A DNA stretch of 64,000 nt, taken from positions 124,001 to 188,000 of the forward strand of contig NZ_JAPYPC010000004.1 in assembly GCF_029937855.1 (NCBI RefSeq), read 5' to 3'. The DNA is from Christiangramia sp. GTDB lineage: Bacteria; Bacteroidota; Bacteroidia; Flavobacteriales; Flavobacteriaceae. Shown one piece after another: positions 44,331 through 53,820 of this stretch. A model generated the notes under the pieces. The model had not been told where the DNA came from and made no database searches. It was given only the letters and a program-made list of their open reading frames with translations. Position 1 is the stretch's first letter. Each line of letters begins with the position of its first letter. The translations under genes and the position numbers were made by a program.

Positions 44331-44863
44331 ATCGTAAAATGTCATTTCGACCGCAGGGAGAAATCTGTTTGAGCAGGGTAAGTCTTTCTTTATTATTCTT
44401 ACTTCCTCTTTCTTTTGTCATTTCAACTGTAGCCTATTATGTTATTTATTGAGCACTGAGCTTGTGGAAGTGCAATTTTCTTTATCGTCCAATCGACCAG
44501 CGGGAGAAATCTCATTTGATGCCGCTAAAAAGAGTTCAGCCTTTTTCATTGATTAAGAAAAATAGTATTTAGTGATAATTCACTAAATAGCTTCTCTAAT
44601 TATGATAATCTTATTTAATCTTGGTAATCCTTATATTTCAGAAAAAACATTCCTATTTCAAACAGTCTTATTAAACAATTAATATTTCGTAGAATATCCT
44701 CTGCAAAATTTTCAGCTATCGTAATCAAAAAATACATAAAATACTGATAATCAGGTAATTGTATATAATGTGGTAAAATTGAAAGTAATTTAAGATTTCT
44801 TCGCTATACATCACTGCTGCTCCAAGACATTAATTTTAATAATTAGTTAAGGAGAAAACAGCA
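44331..44863. other. Leader and promoter region upstream of ilvD
   Basis: 533 bases without a supported gene. The first 190 contain two dispersed-repeat fragments ('gtcatttcgaccgcagggagaaatct' at about 44340 and 'caatcgaccagcgggagaaatct' at about 44490, quoted by parts). A perfect inverted repeat lies at 44567-44588. No TAnnTTTG promoter match was found. A clear Shine-Dalgarno-like AAGGAG lies at about 44849-44854, unusual for this phylum, 9 bases before the ilvD ATG. Confidence 0.6.
44567..44588. promoter_or_regulatory. 22-bp palindrome in the ilv leader
   Basis: ATTTAGTGA-TAAT-TCACTAAAT: perfect 9-bp arms, 4-bp spacer, about 275 bases upstream of ilvD. It has the size of a dimeric regulator's operator and no T-tract follows. 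Possible site for a branched-chain amino-acid regulator. Confidence 0.6.
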
Positions 44864-51594: not shown

Positions 51595-51602
51595 TACATT
51601 TG
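51595..51602 (+). promoter_or_regulatory. Predicted -7 promoter element of the arginine operon
   Basis: TACATTTG, an exact TAnnTTTG match. The leader-peptide ATG follows after only 4 bases, so transcription would begin at or next to that ATG and the leader would be essentially leaderless. The -33 region (ctgtca) is weak. Confidence 0.55.
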
Positions 51603-51606
51603 CATT

Positions 51607-51669
51607 ATGATTTCGATCAAACAAATAATATTAGTCCGTTTCAATTTCAGGCCCCGCCGCCGCTTCTAG
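51607..51669 (+). CDS. Arginine-rich leader peptide 1 (arginine operon attenuator)
   Basis: A 20-codon open frame beginning MISIKQIILV and ending RFNFRPRRRF, then TAG. Arginine is at positions 11, 15, 17, 18 and 19, three of them consecutive CGC codons. The coding segment is built into a hairpin: CAAATAATATTA (51622-51633) pairs with TAATATTATTTG (51696-51707), and CGTTTCAA (51637-51644) with TTGAAACG (51679-51686). The gene encodes no function of its own; translation speed through the arginine codons should decide whether the downstream terminator forms. Confidence 0.8.
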   Translation: MISIKQIILVRFNFRPRRRF

Positions 51670-51715
51670 GCAGTGACCTTGAAACGAATTCCTATTAATA
51701 TTATTTGATTTTTTT
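51622..51715 (+). terminator. Attenuator terminator overlapping leader peptide 1
   Basis: A two-part stem (12 bp and 8 bp, perfect arms) encloses the arginine codons and is followed by GATTTTTTT (51707-51715). A ribosome stalled early on the arginine codons would cover the 5' arms (51622-51644) and keep the terminator open; a ribosome that finishes and leaves would let it form. Confidence 0.75.
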
Positions 51716-51754
51716 CCATTTTGAATTACTTAAACAGCATAGAACATAAACTTA

Positions 51755-51776
51755 ATATCAGAACATTTTCTGATAT
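51755..51776 (+). other. Short hairpin before leader peptide 2
   Basis: ATATCAGA (51755-51762) pairs with TCTGATAT (51769-51776), 6-base loop, followed by CTTTCC. It lies 7 bases before the second leader ATG; may pause polymerase or restrict the second initiation. Confidence 0.5.
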
Positions 51777-51783
51777 CTTTCCT

Positions 51784-51813
51784 ATGCGCCGCCGTTTCCC
51801 CCGTCGCACGTAA
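51784..51813 (+). CDS. Arginine-rich leader peptide 2
   Basis: A 9-codon open frame, MRRRFPRRT, then TAA; five of nine residues are arginine (CGC, CGC, CGT, CGT, CGC). A small hairpin, CGCAC-GTAA-GTGCG (51805-51818), overlaps its end and would be melted by a ribosome at the last codons. A -7-like TATCTTTC (51774-51781) lies 2 bases upstream. No T-tract follows the hairpin, so this second unit may act on translation or in series with the first. It is the second arginine-rich frame within 120 bases of the first. Confidence 0.7.
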   Translation: MRRRFPRRT

Positions 51814-51905
51814 GTGCGTCTATATATCTATGGAACTTAGGTGAGTCCGGTTCTACCCTCGAAACCCCATATCAAAACATATTTTTCAACATAAATCTTT
51901 AGCAG

Positions 51906-52535
51906 ATGAAAATTCTCATTGCTAATAAATCTCATGCTACTTACGCTGAGGTCATTTGTAAAACTATCGAAGAATCGGCGAAGGTACGAGGTACCGGTAT
52001 TGCACGCAGAACTCCTGAATATATTATTAATAAGATGGAAAAGGGGAATGCTGTGATCGCTTTGAATGGCGTAAAGTTTGCCGGTTTCTGTTATATAGAA
52101 ACCTGGAGCCACGATAAGTATGTAGCTAATTCCGGGCTTATTGTTCATCCCGAATTTAGAAATCAGGGGCTGGCCAAGGAGATCAAGAATGTCATTTTTG
52201 ATCATTCCAGGACTAAATATCCTGAAGCGAAGATCTTTGGGATCACCACTGGATTGGCAGTGATGAAGATCAATTACGAACTGGGATATCAACCGGTTAC
52301 TTTCTCTGAGCTCACCGATGATGAAACTTTCTGGAAAGGCTGCCAGACCTGCAAGAATTATGATGTTTTGACAAGGACCGAACATAAAATGTGTCTATGT
52401 ACAGGAATGTTGTATGATCCGGAGAAAAAGAAAGAACCTAAAAAGGTGGAGAAGCCTATAAGCAAATTCAACGAGAAGGCTTTTCAAAGGTTAAAACATA
52501 TTAAACAAACGCTTTTCTACAAAAAAGAAAAGTGA
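51906..52535 (+). CDS. GNAT acyltransferase heading the arginine operon; candidate N-succinyl/acetylglutamate synthase
   Basis: 209 residues. GNAT domain (about 5-140): acyl-CoA-binding loop in IVHPEFRNQGLAKEIKNVIFDH. The C-terminal 70 residues hold a Cys cluster (WKGCQTCKNYDVL, EHKMCLCTGMLYD) and a basic tail. No argA-type kinase-fold or ArgJ gene is in the operon, so this protein is the best candidate for the first step, acylating glutamate. Because Bacteroidetes use a succinyl-ornithine pathway, it may use succinyl-CoA (inference). First full gene after the two leader peptides. Confidence 0.75.
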   Translation: MKILIANKSHATYAEVICKTIEESAKVRGTGIARRTPEYIINKMEKGNAVIALNGVKFAGFCYIETWSHDKYVANSGLIVHPEFRNQGLAKEIKNVIFDHSRTKYPEAKIFGITTGLAVMKINYELGYQPVTFSELTDDETFWKGCQTCKNYDVLTRTEHKMCLCTGMLYDPEKKKEPKKVEKPISKFNEKAFQRLKHIKQTLFYKKEK

Positions 52536-52562
52536 TCACCCCTATCGGACTTTGTCAAACGT

Positions 52563-52584
52563 CCCCTCCTTTGGGAAGGAGGGG
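52563..52584. repeat. GC-rich hairpin between the GNAT gene and argG
   Basis: CCCCTCCTT (52563-52571) and AAGGAGGGG (52576-52584) with a 4-base loop. Resembles dispersed repeat elements of this genome group (a similar hairpin lies at 32946-32964). No T-tract, so it may protect or process the mRNA rather than terminate. Confidence 0.65.
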
Positions 52585-52632
52585 CGCAAAAGAAAATAGT
52601 AGTGCATTCGTGGCAAAAAAATAAAAAAAAAC

Positions 52633-53820
52633 ATGAAAAAAGTAGTATTAGCATATAGCGGAGGATTAGACACTTCGTACTGCGCGAAATATTTATCTGA
52701 AGAAAAAGGTTTTGAGGTACATGCAGTGAGTGTGAACACCGGAGGATTTTCAGAAGAAGAGATCAAAAATATCGGTGATAATGCCAAAAAAATTGGAGCC
52801 AGTAGTTATAAGAACATCGACGCTATTTCATCTTTCTATCAAAAGGTCGTAAAATATCTAATTTTCGGAAATGTCTTGAAAAATGACACCTATCCATTAT
52901 CGGTAAGTGCCGAAAGGATCATCCAGGCGATGGAAATCGTAAATTATGCGAAAAAAGTCGGTGCGACCTATATAGCACATGGAAGCACGGGAGCCGGAAA
53001 TGATCAGGTAAGGTTTGATATGATCTTTCAAATTATTGCGCCGAAAATTAAAATTATCACGCCCATAAGAGATAAACAATTAAGCAGGCAGGAAGAGATA
53101 GAATATCTTAAAAGTAAAGGTGTTGAAATGAACTGGGAAAAGGCGAAATATTCTATTAATAAAGGACTCTGGGGAACCAGTGTTGGTGGAGCTGAGACTT
53201 TAACTTCAGAAAAAGCACTTCCAGAAGAAGCTTATCCATCTCAATTAGTGGAGACAGAACCAAAACAGGTAAAATTGAGTTTTACCAAGGGAGAACTAAC
53301 CGCCATCGATGGCGAGCAGAATTCTTCTGAAAAGAACATAGAGATACTGGAAGAAATTGCTTCAAAATATGCTATTGGCAGGGATATTCATGTCGGTGAT
53401 ACGATCATTGGAATTAAAGGGCGAGTCGGTTTTGAAGCGGCTGCAGCTTTGCTCATTATTAAAGCACATCACTTACTGGAAAAACATACATTGAGTAAAT
53501 GGCAGCTTCAACATAAAGATTACACCAGCAATTGGTATGGAATGCATTTACATGAAGGTTTGTATTTAGATCCCGTAATGCGCGATTTTGAAGCTCAACT
53601 TGAAAGTTCGCAGTCTAAGGTAACCGGAAAGGTGTTTATAACTCTAAAACCTTATCAATTCTCGCTGGATGGAATTAGTTCTCCAAATGATCTTATGAAT
53701 AGCAGTTTTGGAAATTATGGAGAAGAAAATAAGGCCTGGACAGCAGATGACGCTAAAGGCTTTATCAAGATCCTTTCCAATTCAGGGAAGATTTATCAAC
53801 ATGTAAATCAGGATTCATGA
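52633..53820 (+). CDS. argG: Argininosuccinate synthase
   Basis: Joins citrulline and aspartate with ATP. 395 residues: N-terminal PP-loop LAYSGGLDTSYC, the citrulline/aspartate site GSTGAGNDQVRFD, and C-terminal WYGMHLHEGLYLDPVMRD. Its stop overlaps the argC ATG by 4 bases. Second structural gene of the operon. Confidence 0.97.
   Translation: MKKVVLAYSGGLDTSYCAKYLSEEKGFEVHAVSVNTGGFSEEEIKNIGDNAKKIGASSYKNIDAISSFYQKVVKYLIFGNVLKNDTYPLSVSAERIIQAMEIVNYAKKVGATYIAHGSTGAGNDQVRFDMIFQIIAPKIKIITPIRDKQLSRQEEIEYLKSKGVEMNWEKAKYSINKGLWGTSVGGAETLTSEKALPEEAYPSQLVETEPKQVKLSFTKGELTAIDGEQNSSEKNIEILEEIASKYAIGRDIHVGDTIIGIKGRVGFEAAAALLIIKAHHLLEKHTLSKWQLQHKDYTSNWYGMHLHEGLYLDPVMRDFEAQLESSQSKVTGKVFITLKPYQFSLDGISSPNDLMNSSFGNYGEENKAWTADDAKGFIKILSNSGKIYQHVNQDS

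Follow-up and report, generated by a model that had tools for sequence, protein, structure and literature searches.

A predicted tandem arginine leader ahead of the GNAT-argG genes in Christiangramia and other Flavobacteriaceae

Results

Two arginine-rich frames precede the arginine genes

The window, a stretch of 64,000 nucleotides from a contig of Christiangramia sp., contains a set of arginine-pathway genes that opens with a GNAT acetyltransferase gene and argG (Table 1). The Pfam domains encoded downstream were GNAT, argininosuccinate synthase, semialdehyde dehydrogenase (argC-like), P5C reductase, class-III aminotransferase, carbamoyltransferase, amino-acid kinase, M20 peptidase, and an argininosuccinate-lyase-type lyase. 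Ahead of the GNAT gene lie two arginine-rich frames with their hairpins, ORF1 (element 1) and ORF2 (element 2).

Table 1. Coordinates of the leader features and of the first two genes in the window.
Feature	Position	Strand	Basis
Sigma-A-type -7 box (TAnnTTTG), TACATTTG; 4 nt 5' of the ORF1 ATG	51595..51602	+	read directly
ORF1, peptide MISIKQIILVRFNFRPRRRF, 5 Arg, predicted leaderless	51607..51669	+	direct reading, cross-locus frame scan, genus comparison
Terminator hairpin, outer 5' arm, CAAATAATATTA, inside ORF1	51622..51633	+	direct reading, folding, genus alignment
Inner 5' arm, CGTTTCAA, inside ORF1	51637..51644	+	direct reading, folding
Inner 3' arm, TTGAAACG	51679..51686	+	direct reading, folding
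Terminator hairpin, outer 3' arm, TAATATTATTTG	51696..51707	+	direct reading, folding, genus alignment
T7 run, predicted termination point	51709..51715	+	direct reading
ORF2, TTG start 51721, ends MRRRFPRRT	51721..51813	+	open frame and Arg richness in 151/151 loci; start by position
Hairpin H0 within ORF2, ATATCAGAA/TTCTGATAT	51755..51776	+	folding
Hairpin A, CGCAC-GTAA-GTGCG, spans last Arg codon and stop of ORF2	51805..51818	+	covariance model, RNAalifold
Hairpin B, GGAAC-TTA-GG-TGAGT-CC-G-GTTCT	51832..51854	+	covariance model, RNAalifold, loop survey
GNAT acetyltransferase, first gene past the leader	51906..52535	+	Pfam
argG, argininosuccinate synthase	52633..53820	+	Pfam

On direct reading, ORF1 runs from ATG (51607-51609) to TAG (51667-51669) and has five arginines among its 20 codons, with CGC CGC CGC as codons 17-19 (51655-51663). 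Codons 6-13 supply the 5' arms of a hairpin whose outer arms form 12 bp and whose inner arms form 8 bp, followed by seven T. An earlier sequence-only reading of this DNA had described the same frame and hairpin and had placed the arginine pathway next downstream; both sequence features proved exact, and the Pfam domains confirmed the genes. Folding also backs the hairpin: the region 51607-51716 reached -25.9 kcal/mol in a structure that forms the 12-bp helix, lengthened to 14 bp, and the greater part of the inner one, against a mean of -14.6 for 200 dinucleotide shuffles (z = -3.93, 0/200 as low). A simple terminator scan of the window, restricted to loops of 3-8 nt, called no terminator here. 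Element 1 combines a short frame rich in codons for the end product of the operon with the features of an intrinsic terminator, namely a stable hairpin and a T-run ahead of structural genes.

The sequence-only reading also held that a ribosome waiting for charged arginine tRNA would block the terminator. The position of the 5' arms inside ORF1 agrees with this, but a ribosome stalled on the CGC run would cover the inner arm only partly and would leave the 12-bp arm behind it. Judging by footprint size, a ribosome would have to stop at codon 11 (51637-51639), the first for Arg, to cover both 5' arms. No mutually exclusive antiterminator hairpin was recognised in element 1; we propose instead that the ribosome simply occludes the 5' arm.

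That reading had described a single arginine leader with a terminator ahead of the arg operon. Such a leader is present, but the account was incomplete, as it overlooked a second and more widespread arginine-rich frame with hairpins at 51721-51854. ORF2 has 30 codons and a TAA stop at 51811-51813, and the ATG at 51784 is an alternative start. Element 2 has a leader frame with cognate codons; in the sequences examined, neither hairpin A nor hairpin B is followed by a U-run, so element 2 was not classed as a classical attenuator. Folded alone, element 2 of the window gave a z of -1.29 (20/200 shuffles as low) and a minimum-energy fold without hairpin B, the apex of which reads A-GG-TGAGT-CC in the window.

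Element 2 marks arginine loci across the Flavobacteriaceae

The GNAT gene was found in 39 of 59 related genomes; 30 of these yielded loci, all 30 with GGTGAGTCC upstream. Two covariance models of hairpins A and B, R1 and R2, were then used for wider searches. R1 matched 25 of 296 genomes of the order (Flavobacteriales), and 22 of the matches precede GNAT and argG, whereas L053, L055, and L056 (E 0.02 to 0.07) have no homologue of either gene. R2 matched 122 of 199 family genomes, each from a different genus, with one match per genome. At the level of the phylum it matched 18 of 395 genomes, 16 of them in the family and two weakly elsewhere (L075, L076), the latter again without a GNAT or argG homologue. 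Covariance searches of more than 40 genomes use stricter filters, and misses are possible.

The five matches without either homologue (L053, L055, L056, L075, L076) were excluded from the locus counts. The final set held 151 unique loci, 30 obtained via GNAT and 121 via the model, and includes all 122 family matches. A GNAT and/or argG homologue follows in 150 of them (both, 146; GNAT only, 3; argG only, 1), and neither follows in L112. By eye, the protein that follows in L112 is similar to the GNAT-like protein that L181 and L182 carry ahead of argG; in these three loci a GNAT-like protein clearly different from the usual one stands behind the leader, which suggests that the first enzyme was exchanged while its control stayed the same.

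Among the 77 family genomes without a match, 20 were inspected. An argG match was absent in 12, weak in five (E 2.5e-5 to 9.9e-4), and real in three; in those three, inspection by eye showed a frame with Arg codons, hairpin A, and a hairpin B whose stem is kept but whose loop differs. Rfam gave no family at the curated threshold in the window, and raising E up to 5 added two eukaryotic families far below threshold. The arginine repressor domain ArgR_C (PF02863) was detected in 0 of 296 Flavobacteriales genomes, that of the window included, compared with 8 of 14 control genomes, among them Bacteroides ihuae.

Other sequences were seen in the vicinity of these genes. The large family genus g33, which we take to be Flavobacterium, yielded neither an R1 nor an R2 match in the genomes listed; 11 of its 14 genomes with a GNAT match use another leader, TSPEVRML or TSPEVRTL, with 2-4 Arg codons. 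This different leader, upstream of GNAT in L057-L067, encodes peptides such as MNKISLHITSLSRTNSPGTSPEVRML with only 2-4 Arg and carries a conserved ACTTC-TCCC-GAAGT hairpin, then an ATTCAT stretch, and then T-rich sequence complementary to the start region. Short Arg-bearing frames, for example VIKIIAHTNSTSTEYSTRRCAMILYRRRPVRV and MNKTTKHINTLAPRFFRRPLWVLN, also lie 5' of GNAT in L189, L190, L191, L195, and L196 from other families of the order; by eye, L193 has a weaker one, and none was recognised upstream of GNAT in L192 and L194. Between GNAT and argG, the window (52541-52590) contains a palindromic CCCCTCCTTTGGGAAGGAGGGG-type repeat, with varied forms in L009, L019, and L021.

ORF1 is conserved and predicted to be leaderless

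Arg-rich upstream frames resembling ORF1 were found in 93 of the 151 loci, compared with 9 in reverse complements and 12 in shuffled sequences, and a nested hairpin was obtained by folding for 61 of the 93 (reverse complement, 4; shuffled, 1). Eleven of the 93 were discarded by eye as likely chance, which left 82 accepted loci; L015 appears tandem by eye but fell below the ORF1 threshold.

The start codon lies 4 nt past a TAnnTTTn box in 51 of the 82 accepted loci and 5 nt past it in 11; the spacing differs in 10, and the box was not found in 10. The box pattern also matches T-rich tails. In F. psychrophilum a box of this type is placed at -12 to -5 (PMC9723704). With the box at these positions, a spacing of 4 would make the AUG the first bases of the RNA, with +1 at the A of the ORF1 ATG. 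The spacing of 4-5 nt from the sigma-A-type box in 62 of 82 loci thus leads us to predict that ORF1 is leaderless.

Within the genus, ORF1 and its nested terminator-like hairpin occur in all 23 aligned sequences, the window included, with synonymous exchanges (CGT/CGC, TTC/TTT, TCG/TCT). In the 21 sequences tabulated (L022 and L023 omitted) the start is ATG in 16 and GTG in 5, and one CGC codon has been lost in frame in 5. Over the 23 sequences, 97.8% of the cells of the terminator stem are paired. Two of its 12 pairs show compensatory change, a number that 210 of 500 shuffles attain, whereas no shuffle attains the covariation score. Three of the 23 sequences (L003, L005, L020) lack the T-run, and four more (L013, L017, L019, L023) have at most four T. 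Between genera, a locus's own arms paired at -9.0 kcal/mol, against -7.4 for shuffled and -7.0 for foreign arms, a significant but modest difference that holds only on average: own arms did better than at least 90% of foreign arms in just 17 of 61 loci.

The sequence-only reading had looked to relatives for a conserved Arg-rich short frame and for compensatory changes in the arms. The frame is indeed kept in 23/23 genus sequences and accepted in 82/151 loci, and the lack of conservation that would have refuted that reading was not observed; the compensatory changes within the genus turned out thin. The conservation argues against chance as the origin of ORF1 and its hairpin.

We also considered whether the first hairpin could be a mere terminator of the upstream ilv operon, with ORF1 accidental. 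The hairpin does lie on the same strand, about 55-150 nt past the stop codon of a threonine-deaminase-like gene. A promoter-type box lies in between, however, at a fixed distance to ORF1, and ORF1 recurs in more than half of the loci. In L011 and L016, moreover, the sequence 5' of the promoter is unlike that of the other congeners while ORF1 and the hairpin are intact, which indicates that the leader moves together with the arg genes rather than with ilv. We regard the ilv explanation as extremely improbable. No leader frame was evident by eye in the 533-nt gap upstream of the ilv operon of the window (44331-44863).

Element 2 combines a coding signal with covarying hairpins

The ORF2 frame is open over at least 20 codons in all 151 loci, compared with 54 and 40 loci for the other two frames. 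In the 12 codons that end at hairpin A, arginine accounts for 618 of 1812 codons (34%) in the ORF2 frame and for 76 (4%) and 40 (2%) in the others. Removal of the hairpin A codons left 336 of 1510, against 74 and 39; part of the enrichment could come from RNA structure. For the 82 tandem loci (start codons: TTG 51, GTG 19, ATG 12), a start lies 27-29 codons before hairpin A in 77, a spacing that is partly a matter of choice because the script picked whichever start was closest in the range of 26-40 codons. The remaining 69 of the 151 loci have element 2 without an accepted ORF1; in 37 of these loci ORF2 stands behind a TAnnTTTR box, and 32 were left unsorted. On these sequence comparisons, element 2 appears as the common core and the more widespread part of the leader.

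Many ORF2 peptides end in RRP-stop, as might be expected if the leader peptides were arginine-sensing arrest peptides, in which free arginine acting on the nascent chain, rather than a shortage of Arg-tRNA, sets the position of the ribosome. The residues upstream vary widely among genera, however, the Arg positions shift, and RRP can arise from the CGCCC of hairpin A. We consider the arrest reading most unlikely.

Structural alignment of hairpins A and B over 50 loci (46 distinct) showed 13 pairs formed in 96.6% of cells and seven pairs with compensatory change, a number reached by 0 of 500 shuffles; this alignment was fitted to the model and is therefore biased in its favour. An initial alignment of 30 loci, made without such fitting, gave similar values (96.7% paired cells, five compensatory pairs). 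Without a given structure, RNAalifold redrew both hairpins on 27 single-leader loci, with compensatory change in 2 of 12 pairs. By the criterion that at most 2 of 40 shuffles fold as low, H0 stood out in 66/151 loci, compared with 8/150 and 6/151 in two flanking regions; the same criterion selected the hairpin A region in 80/151 loci and the hairpin B region in 46/151. The hairpin B loop reads TGAGT in 111 loci, TGTGT in 26, TGCGT in 9, and otherwise in 5, and is closed by GG/CC in 145/151 and by GA/TC in 4/151.

This nearly invariant apex, G(G/A)-TGHGT-(C/T)C with few exceptions in the 151 loci, would suit a structured RNA in its own right, with hairpins A and B as the binding site of a protein, of arginine, or of some other factor, and with Arg codons that merely tune access. 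The single model match per genome and the lack of a terminator in element 2 point the same way. Such an RNA would hardly explain an open frame of at least 20 codons with Arg clusters in every locus, and by eye L181-L183 retain the stem but not the loop, so that we consider this explanation unlikely.

Several further readings were tried and rejected. Hairpin B is unlikely to mimic a Shine-Dalgarno sequence (AGGTGA), since the third loop base may be A, T, or C and the exchange of GG/CC for GA/TC preserves the pairing but not the Shine-Dalgarno sequence. A pseudoknot with the loop was dismissed, as the complements ACTCA and ACACA do not track the loop type. A mini-ORF that stops at the TGA of GGTGAGTCC, reading MELR in the window, was set aside because relatives, compared by eye, keep neither its start nor its frame. 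Nor is this a hairpin found generally in flavobacteria: the genome has a single TAGGTGAGTCC, the same number as for the reversed control, and R2 finds one match per genome.

G is scarce between hairpin B and the start of GNAT (6.3%, 147 loci); ahead of other starts in the window it makes up 15.0% (24 starts) and 14.0% (7 starts). The C content of the interval (16.2%) is not raised. The G-poor composition is compatible with loading of Rho or with a merely unstructured start region. Element 2 might accordingly govern Rho-dependent termination or GNAT translation instead of acting as an RNA switch, the ORF2 ribosome covering or uncovering a loading region past hairpin B. Rho and Arg codons act jointly in the speF leader of Salmonella (PMC6386406). 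Given that C is not raised, we hold this possibility to be rather doubtful, albeit the least so of the alternatives considered here.

Discussion

The leader is real and conserved, and, judged from sequence comparison, arginine attenuation is its most likely function. We propose that the leader (about 51600-51905) is probably a tandem, ribosome-read arginine sensor that stands in for the missing ArgR. Given that ArgR_C was found in none of the order genomes, Arg-codon leaders would be a natural substitute for this repressor. Several observations count against the proposal: the short or absent T-run in seven genus sequences, the thin covariation of the terminator within the genus, the modest arm difference between genera, the unexceptional fold of element 2 in the window, the share of the Arg enrichment that RNA structure could account for, and the leader with 2-4 Arg codons in 11 Flavobacterium-like loci.

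In element 1, transcription would begin at or beside the ORF1 ATG, and a ribosome would load at the 5' end of the RNA. With enough Arg-tRNA, the ribosome would complete ORF1 and depart, the long hairpin would close, and RNA polymerase would halt at the T7 run. With too little, the ribosome would wait on the Arg codons and sequester the inner 5' arm, and transcription would continue; a ribosome waiting at codon 11 would sequester the outer 5' arm too. Polymerases that pass the T7 run would then make ORF2, the Arg run of which is built into hairpin A. Because the Arg codons of ORF2 are part of this hairpin, a waiting ribosome would have to keep it open. A second ribosome would thus report Arg-tRNA again, by preventing hairpin A from closing or by allowing it to form next to hairpin B, and this read-out would precede expression of GNAT and argG.

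Ribosome-mediated transcription attenuation is an established mode of control in amino-acid operons of the trp, his, leu, and ilv type. Element 1 shares with these a short frame, a run of codons for the end product, and an overlap with an intrinsic-terminator-like hairpin. It differs in belonging to an arginine operon, in its predicted leaderless ORF1, in having a 5' arm made of leader codons with no antiterminator hairpin identified, and in being followed by a second leader without a U-run terminator.

The sequence-only reading knew of no described arginine example in Bacteroidetes. Our searches found no bacterial leader attenuator of arginine biosynthesis in the open full-text literature covered, and the accessible portions of PMC8632094, PMC4833913, PMC7366714, and PMC2864571 contain no such arginine leader. 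The idea as such is not new for the group, however: leader-peptide attenuation has already been proposed for flavobacterial amino-acid operons, with structured 5' elements upstream of, for example, pheA and hisG (PMC9723704). Those leaders represent the same family and idea, and the main text, as far as available, names no arginine leader.

Related arrangements are known elsewhere. Consecutive Arg codons of the Salmonella speF leader frame orf34 report arginine supply, a feature in common with the leader of the window; orf34 controls putrescine synthesis via Rho, mRNA structure, and RNase G, is gamma-proteobacterial, and is unrelated in sequence (PMC6386406). The trpL attenuator frame of Sinorhizobium meliloti has its ATG at the 5' end of the RNA, as predicted for ORF1, but concerns tryptophan, is a single leader, and belongs to another phylum (PMC7298713). 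The Bacteroid-trp RNA motif (RF01692), a predicted cis-regulatory RNA of Bacteroidetes named for trp (PMC2864571), was not matched in the window at the Rfam threshold. What is new here is the tandem arrangement, the predicted leaderless ORF1, and the undescribed hairpin motif, whereas the attenuation itself is of a known kind.

More tentatively, and with somewhat less than an even chance in our estimation, element 2 may be a structured regulatory RNA of a novel class that is restricted to the Flavobacteriaceae. The Arg-codon frame, hairpin A, and the UGHGU-capped hairpin B would then form one switch that couples ribosome position to a factor and attenuates without an intrinsic terminator. Many genera would have stacked a leaderless classical attenuator in front of it, giving a two-stage arginine read-out where ArgR is missing.

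The tandem leader suggests how a bacterial family without a detected ArgR could control arginine synthesis, and it offers a predicted leader attenuator of arginine biosynthesis, for which we found no case in the open literature searched. In bacteria that seldom rely on Shine-Dalgarno sequences, it would pair a leaderless attenuator with a second leader that lacks a U-run and is capped by a conserved hairpin. Its specificity makes the motif a practical target for searches, for naming, and for tests in culturable species.
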